From the NCBI GenBank assembly GCA_030447505.1, contig JAUJOT010000004.1, positions 62,001 through 126,000 on the forward strand: DNA of 64,000 nucleotides, written 5' to 3'. Made by a program: the position numbers and the translations under genes. Source of the DNA: Solirubrobacteraceae bacterium. GTDB taxonomy: Bacteria; Actinomycetota; Thermoleophilia; Solirubrobacterales; Solirubrobacteraceae. Numbering within the stretch: the stretch's first letter is position 1; each line of letters starts with the position of its first letter. Below are positions 18,630 to 41,063 of this stretch, piece after piece. The notes under the pieces are model-generated. The model was not told the origin of the DNA. It worked only from the letters and a program-made list of their open reading frames with translations, and did not search any database.

Positions 18630-19599
18630 CGGCATCCGGCGGCAGCGGGCGCTGACGGCGCTCGGAGCGATGATCTCGATCGCGGCGCTCGCCGCGGTCG
18701 TCCTCTGGGCGGCCCATCAGGAGCCGCCGGCGCTGCCGGCCTCGCCCGGGCGGCTGGCCGAGCTCGGCGGCGCGATCGCGTTCTATCTCGCGGGCTGCGC
18801 CGTGCGCGCCGAGCGCTGGTACGAGCTGCTGCGCTACAACGGCGCGCAGCCGCGGCGCCTGGACGCCTACGGCCTCGTCGCGGTCGCGTACTTCGGCAAC
18901 AACGTGCTTCCGGCGCGCGCCGGCGACGCGCTGCGCGTCGTCCTGATCGCGCCGCGCGCGCGCACGGACGCGCGCACGGCGATCGGCACCGTCGTCGCCG
19001 AGCGCGTGCTCGACGTCGTCGTGCTCGTCGGCCTGTTCGTCGTGCTCGCCTACGGCGTGCTGGGCGCCATCGACGTCCCCTCCGCGGGGCGCCTGGTGTT
19101 CGCGGCGCTGCTCGTCGGCGGCCTGATCGCGGCGAGCGCCGCCGTCGCCTGGGTCCTGCACCGCCGCGGTCACCTGCGGCGCGTGCTCGCCTTCCTCGCG
19201 CCGATGGCGGAGGCGACGCGGCGGCTGCGGTCCAACCACGGCATGCAGCTGCTCGGCATCACCTTCCTCGTCTGGGCGCTGGAGTGGATCGCGTGGTGGC
19301 TGACCGCGCGCGCGGTCGGCCTGGACCTCGCGCTGCTCGAGGTCGGCTACCTGATGGGCCTGGCGTCGGTCTTCGCGCTGATCCCGAGCGGGCCCGGCTA
19401 CGTCGGAACGTTCGACGCCGCGGTCGTCTTCGGCGTGCGCGCGCTGCAGTACACCGGCGCGCAGGCGCTGTCGTACGTGTTGCTGCTGCGCTTCGTGGTG
19501 ACCGTCCCGATCACGCTGATCGGGCTCGTGGTGCTCGTCGCCGGCTACGGTGGGATGAGGCCGATCCGGACGGGTCTCGCACGATCAGGCGCCCGATGA
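18604..19599 (+). CDS. lysylphosphatidylglycerol synthase TM region/UPF0104 family membrane protein
   Basis: Polytopic membrane protein (331 aa, about 8 helices) of the AglD/YbhN/UPF0104 family. Family marks: RAERWYELLRYNG, VAYFGNNVLPARAGD, and SGPGYVGTFDAAVVFG near residue 262. Members are found beside GT2 polyprenol transferases and are thought to help move or use lipid-linked sugars; the exact reaction is not settled. The start lies 26 bp inside the preceding gene. The stop overlaps a 52-codon frame (ATGA). Confidence 0.88.
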   Translation: MSASAPPSSGIRRQRALTALGAMISIAALAAVVLWAAHQEPPALPASPGRLAELGGAIAFYLAGCAVRAERWYELLRYNGAQPRRLDAYGLVAVAYFGNNVLPARAGDALRVVLIAPRARTDARTAIGTVVAERVLDVVVLVGLFVVLAYGVLGAIDVPSAGRLVFAALLVGGLIAASAAVAWVLHRRGHLRRVLAFLAPMAEATRRLRSNHGMQLLGITFLVWALEWIAWWLTARAVGLDLALLEVGYLMGLASVFALIPSGPGYVGTFDAAVVFGVRALQYTGAQALSYVLLLRFVVTVPITLIGLVVLVAGYGGMRPIRTGLARSGAR

Positions 19600-19754
19600 C
19601 CGTCGCGGCTGCGGCACCGCCACCGATTCCACGTAGCACCAGTACGAAGAATCGGTGTCGTCACCGCCCCGCTCGGTCCTCGGACACCTCATCGCACGAT
19701 TCCTGCCCGGATCGACCTCTGCACCGGATGCGGGCGCTGGTGCGGGCGGGATGA
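19596..19754 (+). CDS. 52-codon bridging mini-ORF
   Basis: The ATG overlaps the flippase-like gene stop (ATGA, 19596-19599) and the TGA overlaps an ATG at 19751 (ATGA) that is in frame with the FAD oxidoreductase. Composition is Ala/Pro then Arg/Ser-rich, unlike a folded protein. It contains the inverted repeat 19621-19657. Coupling role more likely than a functional product. Confidence 0.35.
   Translation: MTVAAAAPPPIPRSTSTKNRCRHRPARSSDTSSHDSCPDRPLHRMRALVRAG
19621..19657. repeat. 9-bp perfect inverted repeat with 19-nt spacer
   Basis: CACCGATTC (19621-19629) and GAATCGGTG (19649-19657). It is less GC-rich than its surroundings. Possible regulator-binding site or RNA hairpin in the 208-bp gap before the FAD oxidoreductase. 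Confidence 0.45.
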
Positions 19755-19810
19755 CAGCATCAGCGCTCGACGGCCGCTCGGGCGGAGCTCGAGAGCAGGT
19801 GCTCGCGATG
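19751..19810 (+). repeat. degenerate copy of the bridging element
   Basis: It begins ATGACAGC and ends GCAGGTGCTCGCGATG, identical to the ends of the tandem unit at 11309-11426 read on the minus strand, and is 2 nt shorter. The last 48 nt match the histidine-kinase-proximal unit at 34 positions by hand. The shortening puts the ATG in frame with the oxidoreductase. Confidence 0.5.
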
Positions 19811-21214
19811 CGGGTCGCGGTGCTGGGCGCCGGCGTCGCCGGGCTCGTCTGCGCGTACCGCCTCTCGCAGGAGGGCCACGTCTGCGACGTCTACGAGCGC
19901 TGGCCCGGCGTCGGCGGCCAGGCGGCGACGCTCGACGTCGGCGGCGGCGACCTGCTCGAGCGCTATTACCACCACCTCTTCACGAGCGACCGCCACATCG
20001 TCGCGCTCTACGAGGAGCTGGGCATGGGCGACGAGCTGGAATGGCATCCGTCCTCGATGGCGTTCTTCGTCGACGGGCGCCAGTGGGCGTTCAACACGCC
20101 GCTGGACCTGCTGCGCTTCGGCCCGCTGTCGCCGCCTGCGCGGCTTCGCATGGGCCTGGCGGTGGTGCTGCTGCAGAAGCGCGCCAGGCAGGTCGAGCCC
20201 TTCGAGTCGATCACGGCGCGCGAGTGGATCGAGAAGCGGATGGGCCGCGGGCCGTGGCGCAGGATCTGGGGGCCGCTGCTGCGCGGCAAGTTCGGCGAGC
20301 GCGCCGAGGACATCTCGATGGCGTGGCTGTGGAGCAAGCTGACGCTGCGCCGCCAGCTCGAGGGCGACGAGGCGCGCCACGAGCAGCTCGGCTATCCCTC
20401 GCACTCCTGGGAGCTCTTGTTCGACGCGCTGCGCGACGCGATCGTCGCGGCCGGCGGGCGCGTGCTCACCGACCGCCCGGCGGTGGCGCTGCGGCGTGAC
20501 GGCGACGGGACCTTTCACGTCACCGCCGGCGCGGCCGGCTCGTTTCGCGCCGGGCACGACCCGCGCCGCTTCCCGCCGGCCCCCGAGCCCAGCCGCGAGG
20601 AGCGCTACGACGCCGTCGTCGCGACCGTCCCCAGCGACGTCTTCGGCGCCCTCCTGGACGACGACCTTGCGAGCGCGATCGGGACCGACTACCTCGGGCG
20701 GCTCGCGGCCACCGAGTACCACACGGCGCTGTGCCTGCTGCTCGAGCTCGACCGCCGGTTCTCGCCGTTCTACTGGACGAACATCGCCGATCCCGAGCTG
20801 CCGTTCGTCGGCCTCGTCGAGCACACGAACCTCATCTCGCCCGAGCGCTACAAGGGGCGGCGCTTCCTCTACGTGGCCAACTACGTGGCGCCGGGCGACC
20901 CGCTGCTCGCGCTCTCGCCCGAGCAGCTGCTGGCCGCCTACCTGCCAGGCCTGCAGAAGGTGCAGCCGGACTTCTCACCGGACTGGATCCGGGCGCGCTG
21001 GCTGCACCGCGAGCCGGCCGCGCAGCCGATCGTGACGGTCGGCTACCACCGGCGGATCCCGCCGCTGCAGACCGGCGTGCCCGGGCTCGTGCTCGCCAAC
21101 ACGACCCAGATCTATCCCGAGGACCGGGGCACGAACTACAGCGTCCGGCTGGGAACGGATGCCGCGCGGGCGCTGCTGGAGGCGGCGCAGGCGCGCCACT
21201 CGCCGAAGAACTAG
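19808..21214 (+). CDS. FAD-dependent amine-oxidase/UDP-galactopyranose-mutase-like oxidoreductase
   Basis: Flavoprotein of 468 aa with the N-terminal Rossmann fold VAVLGAGVAGLVCAYRL and a GGQAATL second motif. A long middle region carries REWIEKRMGRGPWRRIWGPL and KFGERAEDISMAWLWSK. A C-terminal FAD-closing segment reads PGLVLANTTQIYPEDRG. It belongs to the NAD(P)/FAD-dependent oxidoreductases found in polysaccharide loci, related to protoporphyrinogen oxidase and amine oxidase. GAGAGCAGG precedes ATG 19808; the ATG at 19751 gives a 19-residue extension and a coupled ATGA start. It may oxidise or isomerise a lipid-linked sugar; substrate unknown. Confidence 0.87.
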   Translation: MRVAVLGAGVAGLVCAYRLSQEGHVCDVYERWPGVGGQAATLDVGGGDLLERYYHHLFTSDRHIVALYEELGMGDELEWHPSSMAFFVDGRQWAFNTPLDLLRFGPLSPPARLRMGLAVVLLQKRARQVEPFESITAREWIEKRMGRGPWRRIWGPLLRGKFGERAEDISMAWLWSKLTLRRQLEGDEARHEQLGYPSHSWELLFDALRDAIVAAGGRVLTDRPAVALRRDGDGTFHVTAGAAGSFRAGHDPRRFPPAPEPSREERYDAVVATVPSDVFGALLDDDLASAIGTDYLGRLAATEYHTALCLLLELDRRFSPFYWTNIADPELPFVGLVEHTNLISPERYKGRRFLYVANYVAPGDPLLALSPEQLLAAYLPGLQKVQPDFSPDWIRARWLHREPAAQPIVTVGYHRRIPPLQTGVPGLVLANTTQIYPEDRGTNYSVRLGTDAARALLEAAQARHSPKN

Positions 21215-21289
21215 ACGTTTGGCGGAGTTTTCTCTTTGACAGACTCTGGCATAACCGGAGGAGCCAATCCACGACACTGGACGTCGCCT

Positions 21290-21751
21290 ATGGATGCCTT
21301 TGCAATACCGCTTCTTCTGTTCAGCGCAGGTCTGACGTGCCTCTTGGTGGCGATCATCAGAGGTTCGTTCGACGACCCGTACCCACGGCGAGCCGGGGTG
21401 ACCTGGGCCGTCACGTGCCCGACCGCCGGACTGCTGTTCGGCATCGGACTCGGGCCGCTGGCGTTCGTGGTCGGCGTCGTGAGCATGCTCGCGCTGGGAT
21501 CGCTCGCATACTGGTTCCTGGCGACCGAGCCCGACGACACGGAGGACGAGACCGAGGAGCCCGTCGAGCCCGACCCGGGCCCGAGCGATGACATGGACGT
21601 CGAGCTGCCGGCGTGGGCGCTGCGCGCCGAGCCCAAGCCCGAGCCGAAGTCCGACATCGACTGGGACGCCTTCGACCGCCTTCGCGAGGAGTGGGAGAAG
21701 GAGATCACGATTCCGGCACCCGAGCCGGAGCGCGTTCCCGCCGGCGTCTGA
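21290..21751 (+). CDS. small membrane protein with acidic proline-rich tail
   Basis: Unrecognised 153-aa protein. There are two or three hydrophobic segments (about residues 3-22, 36-56 and 58-75). The C-terminal tail is strongly acidic and Pro-rich (EDETEEPVEP, PKPEPK) and ends in a helix FDRLREEWEKE. An in-frame TTG at 21236 with GGAG ten bases before it is an alternative start and would add 18 residues. It follows the FAD oxidoreductase by 75 bp and is closed by a strong hairpin. Possibly a membrane adaptor; no function assigned. Confidence 0.68.
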   Translation: MDAFAIPLLLFSAGLTCLLVAIIRGSFDDPYPRRAGVTWAVTCPTAGLLFGIGLGPLAFVVGVVSMLALGSLAYWFLATEPDDTEDETEEPVEPDPGPSDDMDVELPAWALRAEPKPEPKSDIDWDAFDRLREEWEKEITIPAPEPERVPAGV

Positions 21752-21761
21752 AGTACGCCTC

Positions 21762-21793
21762 GCACGGCGCGCGACAAGGGTCGCGCGCCGTGC
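21762..21793. terminator. bidirectional terminator hairpin
   Basis: A perfect 13-bp stem (GCACGGCGCGCGA, loop CAAGGG, then the exact reverse complement). It sits centrally in the 49-bp gap between two convergent stop codons (21751 and 21801). There is no U tract, as is common in high-GC actinobacteria. Confidence 0.8.
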
Positions 21794-21800
21794 CGGCGGG

Positions 21801-22718
21801 CTAGCCCGCGATGTCGGAGTAGACCCGCCACGTCGCGCGCGCGGCGTCGGCCCAGCTCCAGGCGGGCGGCGCCGGAGCCGGTCGCGTCGCAGCGGCGCCC
21901 GCCGCCAGCAGCGCCTCGAGGTCGCCCGGCTCGACGAATGTCGCACGGTCGCCGAGCACCTCGCGCAGCACCGGGATGTCGGTGACGACGACGGGCGTCC
22001 CGCACGCCAGCGCCTCGACCGTCGGCAGCCCGAAGCCCTCGTCGTCGGAGGGAAAGACGAGCGCCCGCGCCCCGGAGTAGATCGCCGCGAGGTCGTCGTC
22101 GGGAACGTGGCCGGTGAGCGTCACGCCGGGCAGCTCGTGCGCCCACGGCTTCGTCGCGCCGACGAGCACGAGCGGCAGCTCGCGCGGCGTCCGGGCCAGC
22201 GCGGCGACGCGCTTGCGCGGGTCGGGCGTCTGCAGGCCGCCGACCCACAGCAGGTACTCCTCCGGCAGCCCGTATCGCGCGCGCGCTGCGGCGATCTCGT
22301 CGGCGCCACGCTCGAAGAGCGCGGGCGCGGGCGCCTCGTGGATGACGACGATCCGCTCGGGCCCGATGCCGACGTGCTCGGTGATCTCGGCGGCGACGAC
22401 CGCGGTCGGCACGATCACGCGCGCCGAGCGACCGACGGCCAGGTAGCGCATGCGAAAGCGGATCCCGCTGCGCAGGTACTCGCTGCGACGCTTGAGCGGG
22501 ACGACGTCGTGCAGCGTCACGATCTGAGGGCCCGTCGGGCGCAGCAGCGCGCCGTCGATCCACGGCGAATGGAAGACCTCGCCGCGGCGCGGGCGCGCTG
22601 ACTCGACGAGCTCGTCGCCGGGCGCAGCGGTCTCGCGCAGCGCGGTCAGCAGGCAGCTCGCATAGCGTCCGATCCCGCGCGGGTCCTGCGCCGGGCGGCT
22701 GTCGAACGTCACCCTCAT
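21801..22718 (-). CDS. GT4-family glycosyltransferase
   Basis: GT-B transferase (305 aa) with a short N-terminal domain: TFDSRPAQDPRGIGRYASCL, FHSPWIDGALL, TLHDVVPL and VIVPTAVVAAEI. The donor domain has LLWVGGLQTPDPRKRV and the EX7E pattern in FPSDDEGFGLPTVEALACG. Its ATG overlaps the stop of the upstream transferase (ATGA), so the two are translated together and probably add successive sugars. Donor and linkage unknown. Confidence 0.9.
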   Translation of the reverse strand: MRVTFDSRPAQDPRGIGRYASCLLTALRETAAPGDELVESARPRRGEVFHSPWIDGALLRPTGPQIVTLHDVVPLKRRSEYLRSGIRFRMRYLAVGRSARVIVPTAVVAAEITEHVGIGPERIVVIHEAPAPALFERGADEIAAARARYGLPEEYLLWVGGLQTPDPRKRVAALARTPRELPLVLVGATKPWAHELPGVTLTGHVPDDDLAAIYSGARALVFPSDDEGFGLPTVEALACGTPVVVTDIPVLREVLGDRATFVEPGDLEALLAAGAAATRPAPAPPAWSWADAARATWRVYSDIAG

Positions 22719-23734
22719 CGCGCGGCCTCGAGCAGGATCGCCTCGACGCGGTCGGCGTAGGCATCGGCGCCGAAGCGCCGGGCGTGGTCGCGGGCCGCGG
22801 CTCCCATCCGCTCCCGCGCGGCGAGCACTTCGAGCACCGCCGCAGCGAGCTCGTCGGGACGGCCCGGTGTCACGAGGCGTCCTGTCACGCCGTCGGCGAC
22901 GACCTCGCCGAGGCCGCCGACGCGCGTCGCGACGACCGGGGTGCCGGCCGCCATCGCCTCGGCGAGCACCGTTCCGAACGGCTCCTGGCGCGAGGGCGCG
23001 ACGAGCACGTCGAGGTGGCGCATGAGCGCGGCTGCGTCCGGTACCCACGCAACGTGCTCGACGTCGCGCGAGCCGCGCACGCGCTGCGCATAGTCCGGGG
23101 CGCTGTCGTAGGGGTCGTCGCCGACGACGATGATCCGGGCGCCGGGCGCGCCGGCGCGGATCTGCGGCGCCGCGCGAACGAGGTCGAGCGGGCCCTTGCG
23201 CGGCTCGATGCGGCCGACGAAGCCGATCACGGGGCGGGCGGGCCGGCCCTCGCCGTCGGGCGGCCACGGGGCGGGCGCGTCCGGCACGTCGAGCTCGACG
23301 GGGCAGTAGACGACGTGCGCAGCGAGGCCTGCGAGGTGCTCGGCGACTGCGCCCGAGTCGGCGAGGACGGCATCTGCGAGCGACCAGAAGCGCGGCACGC
23401 GGTCGACGATGTCATGCACGTGCAGCACGCTGCGGCGCCCGACGAGGGCGGGCAGCAGGCGGCCGCTGACGGTCCCGTTGAGGTAGACGAGGTCGTGGCC
23501 CGCGGCCAGCCGGCGAGCGCGCGGGAAGCTCGCCGCCGCGCGCGCGCCGGCGCCGCGCTGCAGGCCACCGAGCGGGAGCCGCACGACCGGCAGCCCGGCG
23601 TCGTCGAGGGGCCCGGCGGCCGGTGTCGCGAGCGTCAGCGCGTGCCCGCGCGCGAGCAGCCGCTTGGCGAGCCGCAGCAGCCCGATCTCGGCGCCGCCGG
23701 GGTGGGCGACGGCACATACGGCGAGGATCCTCAC
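22715..23734 (-). CDS. GT4-family glycosyltransferase
   Basis: GT-B transferase (339 aa from the GTG at 23734, where ILAVCAVAHPGGAEIGLLRL begins the conserved fold). Donor-binding half: VIGFVGRIEPRKGPLDLV, then APSRQEPFGTVLAEAMAAGTP with EX7E. Upstream sequence in the same frame shows no conservation and would overlap the divergent methyltransferase. First gene of a two-transferase unit with 22718-21801. Confidence 0.9.
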   Translation of the reverse strand: MRILAVCAVAHPGGAEIGLLRLAKRLLARGHALTLATPAAGPLDDAGLPVVRLPLGGLQRGAGARAAASFPRARRLAAGHDLVYLNGTVSGRLLPALVGRRSVLHVHDIVDRVPRFWSLADAVLADSGAVAEHLAGLAAHVVYCPVELDVPDAPAPWPPDGEGRPARPVIGFVGRIEPRKGPLDLVRAAPQIRAGAPGARIIVVGDDPYDSAPDYAQRVRGSRDVEHVAWVPDAAALMRHLDVLVAPSRQEPFGTVLAEAMAAGTPVVATRVGGLGEVVADGVTGRLVTPGRPDELAAAVLEVLAARERMGAAARDHARRFGADAYADRVEAILLEAAR

Positions 23735-23777
23735 GCAGCGATCCTCGCAGGGCGCGGCACGCTGCGAGACTGCGGGG

Positions 23778-24377
23778 ATGGCAGGCGCGCTGCACGATGC
23801 GATCTGGGACATCGTGCCGCCCGACGCGCAGCCCGAGCGCTTCGCGCTGCGCCGCCGCTTCCTGCTCGCGCACGTGCAAGCGGGCGAGACGGTGCTCGAT
23901 CTCGGCTGCGGGGCGGGCGAGTTCAGCGCCGCGCTGCTCGAGCTCGGAGCGACGCCGGTCGGCGTCGACGTCGCGGCCGAGGCGCTGCGGCGCGCGGCAG
24001 CGCGCGTGCCGGGCGCCGACCTGCGGCTGTGGCGCCAGGGCGAGCCGCTGCCGCTCGGCGACAGCAGCGTCGACGCCGTCTGGGCGGGCGACGTGATCGA
24101 GCACGTCGCCGACGTCGCGCCGTGGCTGTCGGAGCTGCGCCGGGTGCTGCGCCCGCGCGGGACGCTGCTGCTGACGACGCCGCATCACGGCCCGCTGATC
24201 CTGCTCGGGCTCGCGCTCAGCCCGCGGCGCTTCGCCGAGCATTTCGAGCCGCGCTCCGATCACGTCCGCTTCTTCTCACCGCGCACGCTGCGCACGCTGC
24301 TGCACGACCTCGCCTTCGAGGTCGCGCAGCTGCGCGTCAGGCGCGCCACGATCCTGACGCGCGCGGTCCGCGCGTAG
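23778..24377 (+). CDS. class I SAM-dependent methyltransferase
   Basis: Compact methyltransferase (199 aa) with VLDLGCGAGEFSAALLELGA, GVDVA, an acidic AGDVIEHVADV and LLLTTPHHGPL. It resembles UbiE/COQ5-like and polysaccharide-locus methyltransferases. The start at 23778 lies 43 bp from the divergent GTG at 23734. It is followed 22 bp later by a glycosyltransferase on the same strand, so it may cap or methylate the same chain. Confidence 0.88.
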   Translation: MAGALHDAIWDIVPPDAQPERFALRRRFLLAHVQAGETVLDLGCGAGEFSAALLELGATPVGVDVAAEALRRAAARVPGADLRLWRQGEPLPLGDSSVDAVWAGDVIEHVADVAPWLSELRRVLRPRGTLLLTTPHHGPLILLGLALSPRRFAEHFEPRSDHVRFFSPRTLRTLLHDLAFEVAQLRVRRATILTRAVRA

Positions 24378-24399
24378 TGGACGACCACTGGCGGTCACC

Positions 24400-25413
24400 T
24401 TGCGCGTGCTGCTCGACATGACCTACGCCGTGCGCGGGCGCAGCGGCACAGGGGTCTATCTGGAGCGCTTGAGCGATGCATTGCAGGCCGAGGGCGTCGA
24501 GCTCGTCGCGGCTGTCGACACGCGCCGGGCCCGGCCGGCCGGCGGCGGCACGGGCAGCGTTCGCAACCTCGCCCACGACACGTGGTGGACGCAGGTCGCG
24601 CTGCCGCGCCGCGCGCGAGCCGTCGACGCCGACGTGCTGCACCACCCGCTGCCGGCGCTCGCGCGCAGCGCGTCCTGCGCACAGGTCGTGACGGTCCACG
24701 ACCTCGCCTTTGAGCGACTGCCCGAGCACTTCGCGCCCGCGTTCAGGCGCTGGGCCTCGATCTCTCACCGGCGGGCGGCCTGCCGGGCCGACGCGGTCGT
24801 CTGCGTCTCGCAGACGACGCGACGCGACGCGATGGCGCGCTGGGGGCTGGACGGGGCGCGGGTCGTCGTGGCCGCGCACGGACCGGGCCAGGGGCTGGAC
24901 GTGCCCGCCGTCCGCGCCGAGCACTTCCTCTACGTCGGCGACGACGAGCCGCGCAAGAACCTCGCGCTGCTGCTCGACGCGCACGCGCGCTACCGCGCGC
25001 AGGCCGGCGAGCAGGCGCTCGAGCTCGTCCTCGCCGGCAGCGCGCGCGCGGCCCAGGACGGCGTGCGCTGCGAGCCCGAGCCGGACCTCGCCGCCCTGCT
25101 CGGCGGCGCCGCGGCGCTCGTGCATCCGGCGCTGCACGAGGGCTTCGGGCTGACGCCGCTGGAGGCGATGCACGCCGGCGTCGCGGTCATCGCCGCGCGC
25201 TCGCCGGGGCTTGCCGAGACCTGCGCCGACGCGGTGCTCTACGTCGACCCCTACGACGCCGACGGCCTTGCGCGCGAGCTCGCGCGCGTCGCCGCCGACC
25301 CGGCGCTGCGGGCCGCGCTCGCCGCGCGTGGCCGCGACCGCGCCGCCGCCTTCTCCTGGCGGGCCTCGGCGCGCGCCCACATCGAGGCTTATACGCTGGC
25401 GCGCGATGCCTGA
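24400..25413 (+). CDS. GT4-family glycosyltransferase
   Basis: GT-B transferase (337 aa, TTG start at 24400). N-terminal LLDMTYAVRGRSGTGVYLER, HHPLPALARS, TVHDLAFERLPE and VVCVSQTTR. C-terminal FLYVGDDEPRKNLALLL and HPALHEGFGLTPLEAMHAG with EX7E. It resembles the mannosyltransferase type at 13605. It is connected to the next transferase by an 11-codon mini-ORF. No better start than TTG exists near the conserved N-terminus. Confidence 0.88.
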   Translation: MRVLLDMTYAVRGRSGTGVYLERLSDALQAEGVELVAAVDTRRARPAGGGTGSVRNLAHDTWWTQVALPRRARAVDADVLHHPLPALARSASCAQVVTVHDLAFERLPEHFAPAFRRWASISHRRAACRADAVVCVSQTTRRDAMARWGLDGARVVVAAHGPGQGLDVPAVRAEHFLYVGDDEPRKNLALLLDAHARYRAQAGEQALELVLAGSARAAQDGVRCEPEPDLAALLGGAAALVHPALHEGFGLTPLEAMHAGVAVIAARSPGLAETCADAVLYVDPYDADGLARELARVAADPALRAALAARGRDRAAAFSWRASARAHIEAYTLARDA

Positions 25414-25441
25414 GCCCCGTTTCCTGCGAGCCGCCCGATGA
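25406..25441 (+). CDS. 11-codon bridging mini-ORF
   Basis: Reads MPEPRFLRAAR. It starts 8 bp inside the end of the upstream transferase gene, and its TGA overlaps the ATG of the next (ATGA, 25438-25441). Confidence 0.35.
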   Translation: MPEPRFLRAAR

Positions 25442-30849: not shown

Positions 30850-30857
30850 CGCGCAGA

Positions 30858-31961
30858 TCACCGTAGCGAGGGCGGTCGACGATCTGCGCCACGAGACGGC
30901 GGTCGAGCGACGGCGCCTCGTCGTAGCGAGCCGATCGCGCTCTGGAAGCCGGCCGCCCAGGCCTCGAACGTGTACGCGGCGACGTCGCGGCGGGCGTTGG
31001 CGCCGAGCTCGGCGCGCAGCGCGCGGTCGTCGTGCATGCGCCGCAGCGCGGCGGCCAGCGCGGGCGCGTCGTCGGCCGCGACGACGAGGCCGTTGCGCTC
31101 GTGACGGACGAGTCCGCCGGCGACGGCGCCGACCTCCTCGCTGGCGATTACGGGTGTGGACTGGTTCATGGCCTCGTTGGCGACGAGTCCCCACGGTTCA
31201 CGGAAGCTGCGGGTCCGAAGGGACGGTATGACACAGACATCCGCGGCGGCCAGGAAGTTGCGGACCTGCTCCGCCGGCTGCGGGCCGACGAACACCACCG
31301 CGCCGCCGGCGGGTTGCCGAGCTGACCCGGTTCCCACGCCGACGAGGACGAGCGCGGCGGCTGATGCGTCGACGCCCGACTGTCGCCAGGCATCGAGCAG
31401 CACCGTTGCGCCTTTTGCCCGGCCTGGGCGCCCCAGAAACACCGCCACGAACGAGGCCGTCCGCTCGCGATCCACGGGAGCGCCCCAGAACGCGTTGTCG
31501 ACGGCCTGCGGCGCGATGTGGACGTTGCTCGCGCCGCGGGCCTTGGCGAACGCCGCGACATGCGGGCCGTAGGCGACGACGGCGTCCGCGTCGCGGTACA
31601 GCGCCGCCATCAGCGGGGCGCCCGCGACGAGCTGCGCCGGCGTGCGCGGATGCGCCCACAGCGCGCTCCACAGGACGAACGGGGTGCGCCCCGCGCGCGC
31701 GCCCTGCCACGCCGCCGGCAGCGCGACACGCCCGGCCGTGCCGCAGACGACGGCGCTGTAGCGACCCGAGGCGGCAAGCCGGGCGACCGCGCGCTGGCCG
31801 ACGCGGCGGTGCGGCACGCCGGGATCGTCGACGCCCGCCGTCGCGTGGATCGAGCGTCCGCCGAAGACCGCAAGCTCGATCGGCACGCGGCGGTGCAGGG
31901 CGGCGAACGCGCCGACGCGCTCGGGCGGGACGTGGTTCGTGACGAACAGGACCGGCTTCAT
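30858..31961 (-). CDS. GT4-family glycosyltransferase
   Basis: GT-B transferase (367 aa). N-terminal PVLFVTNHVPPERVGAFAAL, VVCGTAGRVAL and FVLWSALWAHP; donor half FVAVFLGRPGRAKGATVLLD and PSLRTRSFREPWGLVANEAM. In this protein the EX7E spacing is carried by REPWGLVANEAMN. The ATG at 31961 is coupled to a 17-codon mini-ORF that bridges to the previous transferase. Confidence 0.88.
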   Translation of the reverse strand: MKPVLFVTNHVPPERVGAFAALHRRVPIELAVFGGRSIHATAGVDDPGVPHRRVGQRAVARLAASGRYSAVVCGTAGRVALPAAWQGARAGRTPFVLWSALWAHPRTPAQLVAGAPLMAALYRDADAVVAYGPHVAAFAKARGASNVHIAPQAVDNAFWGAPVDRERTASFVAVFLGRPGRAKGATVLLDAWRQSGVDASAAALVLVGVGTGSARQPAGGAVVFVGPQPAEQVRNFLAAADVCVIPSLRTRSFREPWGLVANEAMNQSTPVIASEEVGAVAGGLVRHERNGLVVAADDAPALAAALRRMHDDRALRAELGANARRDVAAYTFEAWAAGFQSAIGSLRRGAVARPPSRGADRRPPSLR

Positions 31962-32011
31962 CGCGTCGTCGGGATCGCAGACGTCGCACAGGCCGGGTCG
32001 GCGGGGCTCAC
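31958..32011 (-). CDS. 17-codon bridging mini-ORF
   Basis: Reads VSPADPACATSAIPTTR. The GTG overlaps the upstream transferase stop (GTGA) and the TGA overlaps the downstream ATG (ATGA). It spans the whole intergenic gap. Confidence 0.35.
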   Translation of the reverse strand: MSPADPACATSAIPTTR

Positions 32012-33183
32012 GACAGCGCCGCCTCGTAGGCGGCGACGGTGGCCGCGCCGCACTGCGACCACGAGAACGCGTGCTCGACGGTGGCGCGGGCCTGCTCGCC
32101 GGCGCTGTGCAGCACGTGCTCGTCGCCGACGAGGCGGTCGATCTGCGCTGCGATCGCGCTGACGTCGCCGGCGCCCACGAGGCTGATGCCGCCGCCGGCG
32201 CCCGCGATCTCCTGCGGCCCCGGCTCGCCGTCGGCCGCGATCGCCGGCAACCAGCCCGCCATCGCCTCGACATATGCGACGCCGAACGCCTCGTCGGCCG
32301 ACGGCATCGCGAACAGCCACGCGCGGCGCGTCTCGTTCAGCGCTTGCGCGTGCGGGAGCTGGCCGGCGAAGCTGACCCGATCGGAGATGCCGAGCTGCGC
32401 CGCGAGCGCTGCGAGCGGCTCGCGCTCGGGTCCGTCGCCGATCACGAGATAGGTGAGATCCGGGTGGCGCTGCAGCGACGCGATCGCGCGCATGACGTCG
32501 GCGTGGCGCTTGCGCGCGACGAGGTGGCCGGTCGTGACGACCGTCGGCGCGTCGTGGCGCTGCGCGCGCCGCTGCGGGAGGTCCGTGCCGAGCCGCACGA
32601 CGCGCGTCGCGCGGGCTCCGAGCACGCGGCAGCGCTGCTCGATCCCCGCGCTGTTGGCGATCGTCAGCCGCGCGCCGCCGAGCGCCGCGCGCACCGCCTC
32701 CGCGCCGGCCGGCGAGCCGGGCTCGGTGTGGAAGACGTCGCCGCCGTGGACGGAGACGACGAACGGCGTGCGCAGGCCGGCGCGCCGCACGGCCTCGCCG
32801 GCCGGCACCGCATTGTGCGCGTGGACGAGGTCGTACGCGAACGTGCGCCGCAGCGCGCGCAGGGCGACCGCCAGCGACGGCGCCGCCCAGCGCCCCCACG
32901 TGCCGTAGCTCTTCGGCCGCGGCGGCGCGAGGAACGGGACGTACGTGACCTCGATGCCGTCGAGGGTCGCATGCAGCGGCTGGGCGAGAGCTGCCGCGGC
33001 CGCTCGCGCGGCGCCCCTCAGGCCGCTGCGCGCCTGCGCGAGCGACGGCAGCGGGCGGTGGAGCACGAGTACGCGCACGTCGGCGCCGGCGTCGCGCGCA
33101 GCGACGGCCTGGCGGTGCGCCCAGACGCCGAGCACCGGGTCGGCGGCGCGCGGGTAGAACTCCGCGACGATCGCGACCTTCAT
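32008..33183 (-). CDS. GT4-family glycosyltransferase
   Basis: GT-B transferase (391 aa) with VAIVAEFYPRAADPVLGVWA at the N-terminus, YDLVHAHNAVPAG, TPFVVSVHGGD, then VVTTGHLVARKRHADVMRA and FAMPSADEAFGVAYVEAMAG (EX7E). This layout is frequent in the mannosyl-/glucosyl-transferases of exopolysaccharide clusters. The ATG is overlapped by the stop of a 21-codon mini-ORF that links it to the double-domain transferase upstream. Confidence 0.9.
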   Translation of the reverse strand: MKVAIVAEFYPRAADPVLGVWAHRQAVAARDAGADVRVLVLHRPLPSLAQARSGLRGAARAAAAALAQPLHATLDGIEVTYVPFLAPPRPKSYGTWGRWAAPSLAVALRALRRTFAYDLVHAHNAVPAGEAVRRAGLRTPFVVSVHGGDVFHTEPGSPAGAEAVRAALGGARLTIANSAGIEQRCRVLGARATRVVRLGTDLPQRRAQRHDAPTVVTTGHLVARKRHADVMRAIASLQRHPDLTYLVIGDGPEREPLAALAAQLGISDRVSFAGQLPHAQALNETRRAWLFAMPSADEAFGVAYVEAMAGWLPAIAADGEPGPQEIAGAGGGISLVGAGDVSAIAAQIDRLVGDEHVLHSAGEQARATVEHAFSWSQCGAATVAAYEAALS

Positions 33184-33245
33184 CGCGACGGCCTGCTGCT
33201 CGGCTGCCCCCCGACGCTCGTCGCCGCAGCCTCCGGCGCCGTCAT
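33180..33245 (-). CDS. 21-codon bridging mini-ORF
   Basis: Starts MTAPEAAATS and ends SSRPSR. The ATG overlaps the stop of the upstream two-domain transferase (ATGA) and the TGA overlaps the ATG at 33183. The end GCAGGCCGTCGCGATGA closely resembles the ends of the 59-bp units at 11309-11426. Confidence 0.42.
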   Translation of the reverse strand: MTAPEAAATSVGGQPSSRPSR

Positions 33246-34882: not shown

Positions 34883-34890
34883 GGCGCCGC

Positions 34891-34996: not shown

Positions 34997-35572
34997 TCAG
35001 TCCAGCGCCAGCTCCATCACCTCGGCCTCGCGTCGCAGCCGCTGCAGGCAGCGCGCGCGCGTCGGGCCGATCGAGCCGACCGGCATCCCGATCGCGGCGC
35101 CGATCTCCTCGTAGCTGGGCATCGGGTCGCTGACGAGCAGGCGCAGCAGCGCCTGGTCGCGTGCGGGCAGCCGCGCAAAGGCCCGCCAGAGCATCGCGTC
35201 ACGCTCGTCGCACAGCAGCTCGGCGTCGATCGCCGGGGCGCGGCGATCGGGCTCGGGCATGTCGTCGCCCATCGGGATCTGGCGGCCGGCGCCGCGCAGC
35301 ACGCGCAGCGACTCGTGGCGCGCCGTCGTGGCGAGCCAGCCGCCCACCTTCGACGGGTCCTGGAGGCGGTCGATGTGCTCGGCCAGCCGCAGCCACGTCG
35401 TCTGCGAGACCTCGGACGCGTCGTCGGCGCAGAGGCGATGGTTGCGTGCGATCGCCCATACGAGCGCGGAGAAGCGGTCGACGAGCGCGCTCCAGGCCTG
35501 CTGGTCGCCGCTCGCTGCGGCGCGCACCAGCGCGCCGACGTCGGAAGTTGCCCTGTTGGCTTGCATCAGCAT
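34997..35572 (-). CDS. ECF-type RNA polymerase sigma factor
   Basis: Sigma-70 family protein (191 aa) with region 2 (AWSALVDRFSALVWAIARNH, then EVSQTTWLRLAEHIDRL) and region 4 (ARLPARDQALLRLLVSDPMP, SYEEIGAAIGMPVGSIGPTR). There is no C-terminal extension and no anti-sigma gene next to it. It is divergent from the AfsR-like regulator across 149 bp, so the two may be co-regulated. ATG 35572 is chosen as the first start in the conserved region; 35566 is also possible. Target promoters unknown. Confidence 0.88.
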   Translation of the reverse strand: MLMQANRATSDVGALVRAAASGDQQAWSALVDRFSALVWAIARNHRLCADDASEVSQTTWLRLAEHIDRLQDPSKVGGWLATTARHESLRVLRGAGRQIPMGDDMPEPDRRAPAIDAELLCDERDAMLWRAFARLPARDQALLRLLVSDPMPSYEEIGAAIGMPVGSIGPTRARCLQRLRREAEVMELALD

Positions 35573-35606
35573 GCGAGCGACCTTCGCTGCGCCGCATTGA
35601 CGCGAG

Positions 35607-35636
35607 GCTGCGGAAACCTTGCGGTGCAGCTTGCGG
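35607..35636. promoter_or_regulatory. direct heptamer repeats, possible BTAD-regulator operator
   Basis: GCTGCGG (35607-35613), CTTGCGG (35618-35624) and CTTGCGG (35630-35636) recur at 11- and 12-bp steps, with a further GCTGCGC at 35586-35592. SARP/BTAD regulators bind direct heptamers at about one helical turn. It lies between the sigma factor and the AfsR-like gene, so self-regulation is plausible. Confidence 0.4.
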
Positions 35637-35721
35637 CCCTGCAAGATTCGATCTGCCTTCCCGTGCCGACAGGTAGCGCCGTAGTCCTCCAACCGAAGTA
35701 GGGGTCGCGAGAGGACACCCG

Positions 35722-38700
35722 ATGCAGGGTCAGCAGACCGACGACGTCACAGCCGCGACGCACGCGCGCATCGCGCTGTCGGGGACGCTGCGGGCCGAGA
35801 TCGGCGGCCGCGACGTCGCCGCCGAGCTGCCCGGCCGGCAGGGCCGCGCGCTGTTCGCCTTCCTCGTCGTCAATCGCCACCGGTCGGTGCCGCGCGGCGA
35901 GCTGACCGGCGTGCTGTGGCCGCACGAGCCGCCCGAGGCGCCGGAGGCCGGCCTGGCGACCGTGCTCGCGCGCACGCGCCGCGCGCTCGGCGAGGGCGTC
36001 GTGCAGGGACGGGGCGAGCTGCGGATCATGCTCTCGCCCGACGCGGAGGTCGACATCGAACGCGCGGAGGCGGCCGCCGAGGCCGCCGAGCGGGCGCTCG
36101 CGGGCGGCGATCCGCGCTTCGCGCGGGCGTCGGCCGAGGCGGCGCTGCAGATCATCGGCCGGCCGCTGCTGCCCGGCATCGAGGGCGACTGGGTCGAGAG
36201 CCGCCGCGGCGAGCTTGCGGCGCTCGAGCCCGGGCTGCTCGAGGTCCTCGCGCGCGCGGCGCTCGCCGTCGGCGGCCGCGAGCACCTGGCGGTCGCCGAG
36301 CGCGTCGCCCGCACGCTCGCCGAGCGCCACCCGTTCCGCGAGTCCGGCCATGCGCTGCTGATCGAGGTCCACGGCGCCCGCGGCAACATCGCCGAGGCGA
36401 CGCTCGCGTACGACCGCCTGCGCGTGTTCCTGCGCGACGAGCTCGGCACCGTGCCGTCGAGCGCCGTCTCGGCGCTGCACGAGGAGCTTCTGCACGACGG
36501 GCGCCTGCGCGCGTCGGACCAAGCCGCGGCGCCGGCGGCGGCGAGCGGCGCAGGCACGGCGACCACCACGAGCCCGATCCCGCTGCCGGTGATCGGCGGG
36601 ACGCCGGCGGCGACGCCGTTCGTCGGCCGCGAGCAGCAGCTGCGGCGCCTGCGGATGCCGTGGCTGGAGGCGATCACGAGCCAGCGGCGCCTGGCGCTGC
36701 TCGTCGGCGAGGCCGGCGTCGGCAAGACGCGGCTCGCCGCGCAGTTCGCCGCCGAGGTCGACAGCGCCGGCGCCGCCGTCCTCTACGGGCGCTGCGACGA
36801 GGAGCCGCTGTGCTCCTACCAGCCGTTCATCGAGGCGCTGCGCCACCTGCTGCGCCACGGCGATCTGGTCGGCGACGGCGAAGCGGCGCACGACCTCCAC
36901 GAGCTGGCGCGAATCCTGCCGCAGGCGCGGCCCGCGACGGCGGCCGGCGACGCGCCCGCCGGCCAGGACCCCGAGACGGAGCGCTACCGCCTCTTCGAAG
37001 CCGTCGCAGCGCTCCTGCGGCGCGCGAGCCGGCGCGCGCCGCTGCTGCTCGTCGTCGACGACCTGCACTGGGCCGACAAGCCGACGCTGCTGCTCCTGCG
37101 CCACCTCCTGCGCCACGCCGATCCAGCGCGCCTGATGGTGCTCGGCCTCGTCCGCGACGTCGAGGTCGGCGACGACCAGCCGCTGACCGAGCTGATCGCC
37201 GACCTGCGCCGCGAGCGGCGCTTCGACCGCATCGTGCTCGGCGGACTCAGCGAGCGCGAGGCCGATGCGCTCGTCGCCGCGCGCCTCGCCGCGCAGCCGC
37301 GTGCGGACTTCGTCGCCGGCCTGCACGCGCAGACGCAGGGCAACGCGTTCTTCATCGAGGAGGCGCTGCGGGCGCTCGTCGAGGCGCACCTGCTCGAGCC
37401 CGGCGGGGAGGCGAAGGCCGACGCGCTGCGGTCGATCGGCGTGCCGGAAAGCGTCGCCGACGTGATCCTGCGCCGGCTCGGCCGCGTCTCGCAGCTCGCG
37501 CGCGAGGCGCTCACGGTCGCGGCGACGATCGGCCCGGAGTTCGACCTCGCGATCGTCGAGGCGCTGGTCTCGTCATCTCCGGAGCACGTCATCGAAGCGC
37601 TCGAGGAGGCGATCGCGGCGGGGCTCGTCGCCGAGGTCGCCGAGTCCGTCGATCGCTTCGCGTTCTGCCACGCGCTGGCCCGCGACGCGATCTACGGCCG
37701 CCTGTCGCGCGCGCGCCGCCTGCGCCTGCACCTGCGCGTCGCAGCGGCGCTCGAGGCGGCGGGCGCGCCGCCGCGCACGCTCGCGCACCACTTCTTCGCG
37801 GCGCGCGAGGTCGGCGCCGCCGCGCAGGCCGTTCGCTACGCGGTCCTCGCCGGCGAGGAGGCCGCCGCGTCGCTGGCCTACGAGGACTCCGTCGAGCACT
37901 ACCGTCGCGCGCTGGAGGCGGTCGCCGCCGACCCGGCGGCCGACGAGGCGCAGCGCTGCGAGATCCTGCTCGCGCTCGGGCGCATCCAGTGGCGCTCCGG
38001 CGACGCCGCCGCTCGCGAGACGTACGTCGAGGCCGCGGCGAGCGCGCGCGAGCGCGGCGCGGCAGAGCAGCTCGGCCGCGCCGCCCTCGGGCTGGCCGAG
38101 CGCTACTGGGAGGCGAGCGCGGTCAACAGGCGCTACGCCGAGCTCATCACCGAAGCCGTGCAGGGATTGCCGGCCGAGGACAGCGCGCTGCGCGCACGCC
38201 TGCTGGGACGGATGGCGGAGAACCTGCACTTCACGGCCGAGCAGGACCACGGCAAGCAGCTCAGCGCCGACGCGCTGGCGATGGCACGCCGCGTCGGCGA
38301 CGCCGAGACGCTCGCGATGGCGCTCATGAGCCGCCACGTCACGCTGCTGCACATCGAGCACCTCGACGAGCGCGTCGCGCTCAGCGACGAGATCGTCTCG
38401 CTGAGCGGCGAGCATCGCGCGCTGCGCGCCGAGGCACTGCACTGGCGCCTGCTCGACATGTGCGAGCTCGGCGCTCCCGACGAGGCGCGCCGCGACCACG
38501 CCGAGCTCACCGCGCTCGCGGCGCAGCTGCGCCAGCCGCTGCTCGAGCACCTCGCGATCGGCTGGGAAGGCGCGTTCGCACATCTGCGCGGAGACGTCGC
38601 GGCGGCCGAGCGCCTTGCCGGCCGCTCCTTCAGGCAGGCCGGCCGCGCCCAGGTCGGGCACGCCGACAGCTACCTCGCCGGGATGCTCTACACGCTGCGC

Positions 38701-39309
38701 CGCCAGCAGGGCCGCGTCGGCGAGCTGCTGGCGTCGATGGACGCGCTCGCCGGCGGCGGGTCGGCGAACCTCGCCTGGAGCGCCGCCCTCGCGCTCGCGC
38801 AGGCCGAGACCGGCGCCGGCGAGGAGGGCCGCGCGCGCTACGCCGAGCTCGCCGCCGACGGCGCCCGTGCGGTACCGCGCGACTGGTACTGGTTCTTGAC
38901 CGTCGTGCTGCTCGCCGAGACCGCCTGCGAGCTGGGCGACGCCGAGCGCGCGCAGCAGCTCTACGACCTGCTTGCGCCCCACGCCGAGCGCTTCGTGCAG
39001 GTCATCTTCACCGCGAACTGGGGCTCGGTGCAGCGCCAGCTCGGCATGCTCGCGGCCGTCATGGAGCGCTTCGACGCCGCCGAGGAGCACTTTCGCGCCG
39101 CGCTCGCGGCGAACGGGCGCATCGGCGCGGTCCTGATGACGGCCGAGACGCAGGTGCAGTACGCCGCGCTGCTGGCGCGGCGCGGCGCCGCGGGCGACCG
39201 CGTCCGCGCGACGGCGCTTGCCGAGCTCGTCGAGCAGGTCGCGAGGCCGCGCGGCCTGGACGGGCTGCGCCGGCGGGCGCGCGCCGTCAGCGCAGGTCGG
39301 GATGCGTGA
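35722..39309 (+). CDS. AfsR-like transcriptional regulator: BTAD domain, AAA ATPase and TPR region
   Basis: Large regulator (1195 aa). Residues about 15-105 form an OmpR-like winged helix (ELPGRQGRALFAFLVVNRHR, then VPRGELTGVLWP). Residues 110-260 are the bacterial transcriptional activation domain, ending VFLRDELGTVPSSAVSALHE. An AAA/NB-ARC-like ATPase follows, with Walker A GEAGVGKT at 329-336 and Walker B VVDDLHWAD around 444-452. The C-terminal half is helical TPR-like repeat. GAGAGGAC precedes the ATG. Such proteins integrate signals to activate secondary-metabolite or envelope genes. Its target could be the divergent sigma gene or the downstream peroxidase. Confidence 0.92.
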   Translation: MQGQQTDDVTAATHARIALSGTLRAEIGGRDVAAELPGRQGRALFAFLVVNRHRSVPRGELTGVLWPHEPPEAPEAGLATVLARTRRALGEGVVQGRGELRIMLSPDAEVDIERAEAAAEAAERALAGGDPRFARASAEAALQIIGRPLLPGIEGDWVESRRGELAALEPGLLEVLARAALAVGGREHLAVAERVARTLAERHPFRESGHALLIEVHGARGNIAEATLAYDRLRVFLRDELGTVPSSAVSALHEELLHDGRLRASDQAAAPAAASGAGTATTTSPIPLPVIGGTPAATPFVGREQQLRRLRMPWLEAITSQRRLALLVGEAGVGKTRLAAQFAAEVDSAGAAVLYGRCDEEPLCSYQPFIEALRHLLRHGDLVGDGEAAHDLHELARILPQARPATAAGDAPAGQDPETERYRLFEAVAALLRRASRRAPLLLVVDDLHWADKPTLLLLRHLLRHADPARLMVLGLVRDVEVGDDQPLTELIADLRRERRFDRIVLGGLSEREADALVAARLAAQPRADFVAGLHAQTQGNAFFIEEALRALVEAHLLEPGGEAKADALRSIGVPESVADVILRRLGRVSQLAREALTVAATIGPEFDLAIVEALVSSSPEHVIEALEEAIAAGLVAEVAESVDRFAFCHALARDAIYGRLSRARRLRLHLRVAAALEAAGAPPRTLAHHFFAAREVGAAAQAVRYAVLAGEEAAASLAYEDSVEHYRRALEAVAADPAADEAQRCEILLALGRIQWRSGDAAARETYVEAAASARERGAAEQLGRAALGLAERYWEASAVNRRYAELITEAVQGLPAEDSALRARLLGRMAENLHFTAEQDHGKQLSADALAMARRVGDAETLAMALMSRHVTLLHIEHLDERVALSDEIVSLSGEHRALRAEALHWRLLDMCELGAPDEARRDHAELTALAAQLRQPLLEHLAIGWEGAFAHLRGDVAAAERLAGRSFRQAGRAQVGHADSYLAGMLYTLRRQQGRVGELLASMDALAGGGSANLAWSAALALAQAETGAGEEGRARYAELAADGARAVPRDWYWFLTVVLLAETACELGDAERAQQLYDLLAPHAERFVQVIFTANWGSVQRQLGMLAAVMERFDAAEEHFRAALAANGRIGAVLMTAETQVQYAALLARRGAAGDRVRATALAELVEQVARPRGLDGLRRRARAVSAGRDA

Positions 39310-39353
39310 TCTCGAACACGACGATGTATCTGAGGCGGCGCAGCCGCCTCTGA
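39306..39353 (+). CDS. 15-codon mini-ORF between regulator and peroxidase
   Basis: Reads VISNTTMYLRRRSRL. The GTG overlaps the regulator stop (GTGA) and the TGA lies 6 nt before the peroxidase ATG, so coupling would depend on re-initiation. It covers the hairpin at 39332-39350. Confidence 0.3.
   Translation: MISNTTMYLRRRSRL
39332..39350 (+). terminator. GC hairpin upstream of the peroxidase gene
   Basis: GAGGCGGC, loop GCA, GCCGCCTC: a perfect 8-bp stem just after the regulator gene and 10 nt before the peroxidase ATG. It could be a terminator for the regulator transcript or a structure gating peroxidase translation. Confidence 0.45.
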
Positions 39354-39359
39354 CCCTGC

Positions 39360-40994
39360 ATGACCAAGCTTGCCGAGGCCCCGATGGCTGAGATACGACG
39401 ATCCGCAGCGAAGCGCCGGCGCACGAAGAAGACGAGCCTCGTGGAGCTGCGCACGAGCCTGCCGACGCGCTTTGGCCCGCTGTGGCGGTTCATCCAGCGC
39501 ACCCCGCCGCTCGAGCGGATCGTCAATCGCGTGCTCATCAACCAGGGCATCAACGTCCTGCCGCCGCGCCCGTACCGCCTCAGCACGAAGCTCGACTTCA
39601 CGACGCAGGACACGCTCGTCGACAAGACCTACAACTGCCGCCAGCTTCCCCCGACGGACGCCGTCGATCCGCGCACGGATCCCGATCCCTGCGCTGTCGT
39701 CGAGCTCTTCCGGCGCCGTGAGTTCATTCCCTGCGAGAAGTCGACGGTGCTGTTCGCGTACGTCGCGCAGTGGTTCACGGACGGCTTTCTGCGCAGCGAC
39801 CGCAAGAACGTCGACAACGACGTGCGCGACATCCGTCGCAACGAGTCCACGCACGAGGTCGACCTGGCGCAGCTCTACGGCCTCGACGACGACGAGACCC
39901 AGGCGCTGCGCGACAAGCGCCAGCCGATGCTGCTCGCCCACCAGGGTGAGATCGGCGAGGAGCTGCCACCGGATCTCTACGACGCCGACGGGACGCGGGT
40001 GGCCCAGTTCGCCGGCCTGCGGGTCGTCGGAACGAAGAAGGTGAAGGTCGACAACGCCCAGCTGCTGGCGATGGGCAGCGACGTCTCGAACACGCAGATC
40101 GGCTACTCGATGCTCAACACCCTGTTCCTGCGCGAGCACAACCGGATCGCCCGCGAGCTCGCGCAGGCCAACCCGGGATGGCACGAGGACCGGATCTTCT
40201 ACGCCGCGCGCAGCGTCCTGACCGTGCTCCTGATCAGGGTCGTGATCGAGGAGTACATCAACCACATCCACCCCTACCACTTCCGCTTTCGCCTCGATCC
40301 GCGCGGCTTCGACAAGCAGCCGTGGATGCGGCCCAACTGGGTCGCGGTCGAGTTCAACCTGCTCTACCGCTGGCACAGCCTGATCCCGTCAGAGCTCGCG
40401 GTCGGCTCGCAGACGCTGCCGCTCGAGCAGACGGTGTTCCGCACGCGGGACCTGCTCTCCACGCACGGCCTCGCGGCGCTCGTCGACAGCGCCTCGCGCC
40501 AGCCCGCCGGCAAGGTCGGCCTGCGCAACACGCCCGAGATGCTGCTCTACAGAACCGACCTGCCGAGCATCAAGGCGGGGCGCGACGTGCGCCTGCGCGG
40601 CTACAACGACTACCGCGAGGCGTGCAGGTTCCCGCGCGCCAGGACCTTCGAGGACATCTCGTCGGACCCGGAGACGTGCGACGCGCTGCGCGAGCTGTAC
40701 GGCGACGACGTCGACGAGGTCGAGTTCTACGTCGGGCTGTTCGCCGAGGACAGCCGCCCGAACTCGGTGCTGCCGCCGCTGATCGGGCGCCTCGTCGGCC
40801 TGCACGCGTTCTCGCAGCTGCTGACGAACCCGCTCTTCTCTCGCGAGGTCTACAACGAGGCGACGTTCTCGCGTCGCGGAATGCAGATCATCGACGAGAC
40901 CCGCAGCCTGGGCGACGTCGTGCGACGCAACATCCCAGAGGGCACGCGGATGCCGCTCGTGACCCTCACGCGGCAGGACTGGAAGCGCGTGTAG
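39360..40994 (+). CDS. cyclooxygenase-like animal-type haem peroxidase
   Basis: Protein of 544 aa in the peroxidase-cyclooxygenase superfamily. The proximal haem ligand and the radical-forming Tyr of prostaglandin synthases are recognisable in EFNLLYRWHSLIP (Tyr336, His339; COX Tyr385 and His388). HNRIARELAQANPGW and VVIEEYINHIHPYHF match the flanking COX helices. At the distal site COX has AQHFTHQF; here it is AQWFTDGF, with Gln137 kept and the distal His replaced by Asp141. No signal peptide; the N-terminus is very basic (KRRRTKK). May oxidise fatty acids or lipid chains. The gene stands alone after the AfsR-like regulator. Confidence 0.88.
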   Translation: MTKLAEAPMAEIRRSAAKRRRTKKTSLVELRTSLPTRFGPLWRFIQRTPPLERIVNRVLINQGINVLPPRPYRLSTKLDFTTQDTLVDKTYNCRQLPPTDAVDPRTDPDPCAVVELFRRREFIPCEKSTVLFAYVAQWFTDGFLRSDRKNVDNDVRDIRRNESTHEVDLAQLYGLDDDETQALRDKRQPMLLAHQGEIGEELPPDLYDADGTRVAQFAGLRVVGTKKVKVDNAQLLAMGSDVSNTQIGYSMLNTLFLREHNRIARELAQANPGWHEDRIFYAARSVLTVLLIRVVIEEYINHIHPYHFRFRLDPRGFDKQPWMRPNWVAVEFNLLYRWHSLIPSELAVGSQTLPLEQTVFRTRDLLSTHGLAALVDSASRQPAGKVGLRNTPEMLLYRTDLPSIKAGRDVRLRGYNDYREACRFPRARTFEDISSDPETCDALRELYGDDVDEVEFYVGLFAEDSRPNSVLPPLIGRLVGLHAFSQLLTNPLFSREVYNEATFSRRGMQIIDETRSLGDVVRRNIPEGTRMPLVTLTRQDWKRV

Positions 40995-41028
40995 TCGCGC
41001 CGGCGTCCGGCTCGGGCCGGCGCAAACC

Positions 41029-41034
41029 TAGACT
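41029..41034 (+). promoter_or_regulatory. -10 box before the MAARE mini-ORF
   Basis: TAGACT, 11 nt before an ATG at 41046. That ATG opens a 5-codon frame coupled to the transferase GTG at 41060. Confidence 0.4.
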
Positions 41035-41045
41035 CTCGCGCGGAG

Positions 41046-41063
41046 ATGGCGGCGCGCGAGTGA
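41046..41063 (+). CDS. 5-codon leader mini-ORF
   Basis: MAARE then stop. Its TGA overlaps the GTG start of the following glycosyltransferase (GTGA, 41060-41063). Likely a leader that delivers ribosomes to the GTG. Confidence 0.3.
   Translation: MAARE

Follow-up and report, generated by a model that had tools for sequence, protein, structure and literature searches.

Within the 64,000-nt stretch of a Solirubrobacteraceae genome analysed here (the window, G000:C11:62001–126000; the source genome, G000, comprises 3.84 Mb at 73% GC), several gaps between same-strand genes are crossed by mini open reading frames (mini-ORFs) whose stop codons overlap the next start within an NTGA sequence. All eight frames listed in the original prediction on this DNA are present, open and in the phase given there. 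They had been taken as unrelated to copies of a short dispersed repeat in the same window; we find instead that the bridges are mostly insertions, or remnants of insertions, of that repeat at ancestral stop/start overlaps. It is very likely that they are mainly intact or decayed copies of an element of ∼59 bp, inserted at NTGA overlaps in such a way that coupling between the flanking genes is preserved.

Junctions were compared with those of related genomes, of which G003 is the closest relative of G000 and G006 is a sister species without repeat copies; wider scans covered 146 genomes of the family and 396 of the phylum. Copies were detected with a profile built from the first ones found (searched over 1.55 Mb of G000) and with a sequence-only covariance model, R1, run on the entire genome. 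Domain identities of the junction genes were obtained with Pfam. The window junctions that carry the repeat or its remnants are as follows.

1955–2017, plus strand: repeat copy (E 1.8e-14, R1), GTGA...ATGA with a 20-codon mini-ORF, between an ABC-2 permease gene (1185–1958) and an ABC ATPase gene (2014–2808); the G006 ortholog has a bare GTGA.
11367–11429, minus strand: first of two tandem copies (E 7.2e-19), behind a response regulator gene (11426–12094).
11308–11370, minus strand: second tandem copy (E 7.3e-17), which has its ATGA in common with the first and ends on the start of a histidine kinase gene (9878–11311); G006 has a bare ATGA at this junction.
14630–14659, plus strand: mini-ORF, GTGA...GCGATGA, running into the next copy.
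14656–14718, plus strand: full repeat copy (E 4.7e-13), with a glycosyltransferase gene starting at its final ATGA (14715).
19596–19754, plus strand: 52-codon mini-ORF linking the upstream stop to a decayed copy.
19751–19810, plus strand: decayed repeat copy (E 4e-12) that has lost its stop and is fused in frame to an amine oxidase-like gene.
31958–32011, minus strand: bridging insert of 54 nt, GTGA...GCGATGA, with a glycosyltransferase gene on either side; G005, G006 and G007 have a bare GTGA.
33180–33245, minus strand: 66-nt bridging insert, a worn repeat copy matched by R1 over 33180–33224 (E 4.3e-5); G006 has a bare ATGA.

The repeat unit measures 59 nt, or 63 nt when both NTGA ends are included, and occurs both dispersed and in tandem. 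The profile search gave 30 matches in its 1.55 Mb; at E<1e-3 the covariance model counted 57 copies over the entire genome, tandem arrays included. Arrays of two and four copies are present, in which adjacent copies have an NTGA in common. The conserved parts are the left 20 nt and the right 12 nt, and the middle differs at about half of its positions. The genus supplied 68 distinct copies. A length of exactly 63 nt is found in 62 of them, the mini-ORF stop falls exactly on the terminal ATGA also in 62, and in 63 the copy begins on the stop codon of an ORF that has 40 codons or more. That the middle is near-random between copies, yet 62/68 keep length and frame, supports a termination–reinitiation relay. 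Stops interrupt the coding frame in 1/61 copies and the two other sense frames in 4 and 7, a small difference. The first base of the left end varies (A in 49, G in 15, T in 2), whereas the right end is ATGA in 66/68 copies, and the new A of the right ATGA is thus supplied by the element. Two copies, L087 in G003 and L143 in G002, lie 7 nt downstream of a TANNNT box with no upstream ORF and look as if they sit at leaderless start codons. At C11:20935–21174 of G000, four tandem copies, three of them identical, stand ahead of a gene whose product starts MSILVGEDTRL, an arrangement that suggests recent expansion or homogenisation.

The repeat family is nearly confined to one genus, whose seven genomes hold 57, 28, 15, 7, 1, 0 and 0 copies. 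Beyond the genus, one other genome of the 146 in the family has matches (two copies, E<1e-4), and R1 found none outside the genus in the 396 phylum genomes. Matches in named genomes fell in Solirubrobacteraceae and Solirubrobacterales metagenome-assembled genomes (MAGs), in one 'Actinomycetota bacterium' MAG and in 'Candidatus Siliceabacter maunaloa' (a Solirubrobacteraceae genus), and in no others.

At the junctions compared, where a copy is absent from one species the orthologous site is a bare NTGA stop/start overlap. The copy at L121 of G002 thus faces an empty site with a bare ATGA in G000 (GCGCGATGACC), and the copies at L124 of G005 and L131 of G002 face a bare GTGA (GCTGTGAGG). A copy at L130 of G005 stands at a start behind a -10-like box; this box recurs in G000, there with a plain ATGACC as the start. 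In the copy-free G006, the upstream stop lies within an in-frame NTGA in 34 gene pairs, in two of them by chance only. Eight such bare junctions are occupied in G000 by forward inserts of at least 46 nt, among them a four-copy and a two-copy array, and all eight inserts are NTGA-bridged. The response regulator/kinase junction (11308–11429) holds two copies in G000, one each in G005 and G002 and none in G006. A GTGA in relatives becomes GTGA...ATGA in G000 at 1955 and 31958, and the 14630, 31958 and 33180 bridges and the 19596 junction all consist of extra DNA where relatives have bare overlaps.

Several of these inserts appear to be worn. The 14630 junction is a bare overlap in G001, G002, G004, G005 and G006; in G003 it holds a 24-nt remnant, GTGAGCGGCGCGCGGCGGCGATGA, in which both overlaps are intact and nothing else survives. 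The frame at 14630–14659 is probably the deleted remnant of a repeat copy, and the 54-nt insert at 31958–32011 is probably a worn one. Both 14630–14659 and 19596–19754 had been described as ending on the start of the next gene. The overlaps are real, but the start codons reached are the first codons of the full copy and of the decayed copy, respectively; the gene behind the former begins at 14715 and the true start of the amine oxidase-like gene is likely 19808. At the 19596 junction a single clean 63-nt copy is present in G005, and only the bare GTGA in G006. In another genus, at locus L166 of G013, an 86-nt gap (GTGAGCTCGCGCCGG...CGCTCGTGAGCC) separates the orthologs of the genes at 13605 and 14715; it may be a bridging insert that belongs to another repeat family.

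The earlier claim that intergenic gaps are systematically bridged was assessed on 1.55 Mb of G000, against shuffled controls in which flanks were kept or phase was randomised. A strict bridge was defined as a frame with NTGA at both ends, in a co-directional gap of 20–220 nt (n=439); a chain bridge may consist of NTGA-linked frames in series, in gaps of 20–420 nt. Strict frames were present in 25/439 gaps; 14 of these gaps form a single family of homologs, each exactly 55 nt long. Outside the family, strict frames occurred in 11/416 gaps against 7.2±2.6 with randomised phase (P=0.11), and loose bridges numbered 32 against 21.4±4.3 expected (P=0.03). Chain bridges were found in 18/24 family gaps (5.0±1.9 expected) and in 16/496 non-family gaps (8.8±2.6 expected, P=0.01). 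Systematic bridging is thus true of repeat-holding gaps and untrue of the others, in which 480/496 (97%) are unbridged. Once the family copies were removed, the excess for generic gap bridging was weak or nil and that candidate was rejected; the small residual excess fits worn repeat copies. One non-family 'bridge', on the minus strand of C11 of G000 (gap 233240–233358, reverse-complement coordinates), contains an apparent tRNA gene, GGTGGCCCATCCGGTCTTCAAAACCGGC..., which cautions that such frames may be incidental.

These counts bear on the idea that unbroken translation across gaps is selected genome-wide, to oppose Rho or to allow reinitiation, with mini-ORFs arising independently in each gap. 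The slight non-family excess of chain bridges speaks for it, as does a mini-ORF at 25406 (described below) that changes in sequence while its coupling is kept in eight genomes. We nevertheless regard it as improbable: the shuffled control largely refutes it, since the strict count is not significant and nearly all non-family gaps are unbridged, and three of the best cases put forward for it are inserts at bare overlaps. What the control leaves of the general claim is the small excess, and a selected genome-wide rule does not stand. The narrower observation that coupling persists where sequence does not holds up, both in the 14630 insert of G000 compared with the 24-nt remnant of G003 and in the 25406 overlap. 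Termination–reinitiation coupling would suffice to account for the bridges, and nothing in the analysis favours Rho.

A second alternative, that the mini-ORF peptide is functional and the copies form a gene family, is very improbable. A 20-residue consensus is recognisable in many copies, but the middle codons vary at about half of their positions (0.50, 0.44 and 0.53 at codon positions 1, 2 and 3) with no clear third-position pattern, remnants of 7–9 codons persist, and reversed copies encode unrelated peptides. The peptide shows no clear sign of selection. RNA structure in the element was rejected as well: the consensus fold is -0.81 kcal/mol with 3 pairs, dyad symmetry and a conserved hairpin are absent, and an Rfam scan of the window gave no match. 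A Shine–Dalgarno match of at least 4 nt is found at the 3' end of the element in 73% of copies compared with 54% of native -4 overlaps; matches of at least 5 nt are no commoner than at native -4 overlaps, and the element was rejected as a supplier of such sites. Least credible of all is a chance origin of the frames in a genome of 73% GC that is rich in long open frames. Chance does account for 7402 and 39306 and may account for 41046, and an expectation of 13.4 chain bridges in 525 gaps is not a small one; but 34 were observed against 13.4±3.1, and repeat homology and empty sites refute chance for the family copies.

For insertion of the repeat at NTGA overlaps, we propose the following mechanism. 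The element, perhaps moving by transposition, would enter N|TGA, at which either an upstream TGA stop overlaps a start codon or a bare start codon has the form NTGA. The product would be N+[TGACN...CTCGCGA]+TGA, the final TGA being either a duplicated target or a part of the element. As the inserted length is 2 modulo 3 and the inner frame is open, a ribosome ending the upstream gene at NTGA would most likely restart immediately on the overlapping codon, translate the 20-codon mini-ORF, stop at the new ATGA and restart a second time on the downstream gene. One stop/start overlap would become two, or n+1 in tandem arrays, with coupling kept. After insertion the interior may drift freely and in-frame deletions may shrink it, while selection, acting beyond the choice of target, would hold the double overlap alone. 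Repeat insertion would thereby explain sequence-free mini-ORF bridges in operons without selection on the peptide.

Certain observations weigh against this reading. Genes were called by codon usage with a home-made caller, and some starts are uncertain. Six of the 68 genus copies depart from the rule of length and frame, the left 155 nt of the 19596 bridge are not accounted for, and R1 gives no match to the 31958 insert. A mobilising enzyme was not found; Y1 transposase (PF01797) occurs in 0/7 genus genomes and was therefore rejected as the mobiliser. A search for orphan ends, which could point to a long autonomous element, gave no convincing case.

The weak matches whose ends looked odd are in fact reversed copies between co-directional genes. 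Six of them, in G000 outside the window, were examined:

C12:188671–188733, reversed copy.
C11:304822–304884, reversed copy.
C11:44885–44946, reversed copy.
C2:2225–2285, reversed copy.
C12:140879–140940, reversed copy.
C10:207075–207136, reversed copy.

Read in gene direction, reversed copies have the form TAG-CGAGGA-N6-DTG...CGAGCAAYGGCGCGCAGTC-GTGA. In 6/6 an internal start lies 14–15 nt after the beginning of the upstream TAG, and a 15–16-codon frame runs from it to a stop that overlaps the start codon of the following gene, at -4 in five copies and at -1 in the sixth. The G006 counterparts of two of these junctions are bare overlaps. The gaps at C11:44885 and C10:207075 had been considered as start-codon miscalls, an explanation rejected because both are reversed copies. 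The reversed frame is not the complement of the forward frame, and typical forward copies lack the reversed start, which indicates that the versions competent for bridging are separate in each orientation. At C10:321309–321424 of G000 a forward copy and a reversed end lie side by side with no gap (GGCGCGCAGTCGTGACTGCGCGCC), and the C-terminus of the upstream gene product, ...SDGAQS, looks to be derived from the reversed copy.

The closest known counterparts are the mycobacterial interspersed repetitive units (MIRUs), which reportedly go back to Supply et al. 1997. MIRUs underlie a widely used tuberculosis typing scheme; they are not known to have dyad symmetry or to be oriented otherwise than the flanking genes. 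They are short units, in tandem at senX3-regX3, that insert at start codons with -4 coupling; restart at -4 overlaps has been described and the same was proposed for MIRUs (PMC12548453). The senX3-regX3 units are 77 and 53 bp long and limited to M. leprae and the M. tuberculosis complex (PMC4213456). The present repeat resembles them in many respects: MIRU units are 40–100 bp, dispersed and in tandem (here 59 nt, 57 copies, arrays of two and four); their small ORF overlaps the stop and start of the neighbours (here in 62/68 copies); insertion is at DTGA/start-codon sites (here bare NTGA at orthologous empty sites); 77 and 53 bp and 59 nt are all 2 modulo 3; copy make-up varies in a two-component operon (here regulator/kinase); and the present repeat, too, shows no dyad symmetry. 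Most repeat copies follow the orientation of the flanking genes, but bridging is also seen in at least six copies that lie reversed and have an internal start of their own. The host, a member of the Solirubrobacteraceae and thus of an unrelated soil lineage, and the empty sites between species are further differences. The repeat works like a MIRU but is not classed as one, because host and sequence distribution differ; no sequence relation was found, the MIRU letters not having been compared directly. Like REP/RAYT and IS200/IS605-derived repeats, it is dispersed, short, intergenic and possibly mobilised in trans, but it has no conserved hairpin and its genus no Y1 transposase.

We tentatively suggest that the repeat is a new lineage-specific mobile element, evolved independently of MIRUs and translationally transparent in both orientations. 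The forward form would provide a 20-codon relay ORF at NTGA and the reversed form a 15–16-codon relay ORF with its own Shine–Dalgarno-like GAGGA and internal start, and decay would yield sequence-free relay ORFs. If so, decayed inserts would be a source of new operon spacers. Now that a second MIRU-like system is available from a distant branch of the actinobacteria, and its sister species offer empty sites, differing copy numbers and remnants, the origin of MIRUs and the role of coupling can be tested by comparison.

The remaining frames of the window are all on the plus strand.

7402–7479, plus strand: frame whose ATG lies inside a conserved -10-like box, TAAGAT (7398–7403), and which is broken in G003.
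25392–25397, plus strand: -10-like TACGCT, 8 nt upstream of the next ATG, a leaderless arrangement.
25406–25441, plus strand: upstream mini-ORF whose stop overlaps the ATGA of the next gene.
39306–39353, plus strand: frame without overlap of the next start, containing a perfect inverted repeat, GAGGCGGC-gca-GCCGCCTC.
41046–41063, plus strand: 5-codon frame whose ATG lies 11 nt after TAGACT (41029–41034), with GTGA on the next gene.

Translation of 7402–7479 from that ATG is unlikely, and the bridges at 7402, 39306 and 41046 may be put down to chance or taken as unproven. The frame at 39306–39353 is, as previously noted, a near miss. The GC-rich inverted repeat (39306–39360) is flanked by a BTAD/AAA regulator gene and by a gene resembling animal haem peroxidases, the latter without a genus ortholog; the upstream neighbour of 41046 has none in the genus either.

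Unlike the repeat-derived bridges, 25406–25441 is probably a leaderless upstream mini-ORF. Its orthologs have a TANNNT box where the upstream gene ends, followed by a mini-ORF of 3–19 codons, with the box 4–10 nt from the mini-ORF start in most relatives and further off in G011. Coupling by a stop over the next start is kept in G000, G001, G002, G003, G005, G006, G011 and G012, in which sequence and length differ, and is absent in G013 and G014. The frame at 41046–41063 is possibly of the same kind. Leaderless upstream small ORFs with RTGA coupling are known in mycobacteria (PMC4633059), and 25406 resembles them in its TANNNT box, an ATG ∼8 nt further on and a short ORF with its stop over the gene start. 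The present genome differs in having no clear enrichment: the count was 10 of 327 leaderless-like cases (3.1%) against 2.2% in the control, which is not convincing, and leaderless mini-ORFs were rejected as a genome-wide rule. In the sampled genome, TANNNT peaks 6–10 nt upstream of called starts and accompanies about one-fifth of first-gene starts, which suggests that many mRNAs are leaderless and that TANNNT boxes allow start codons to be re-annotated.

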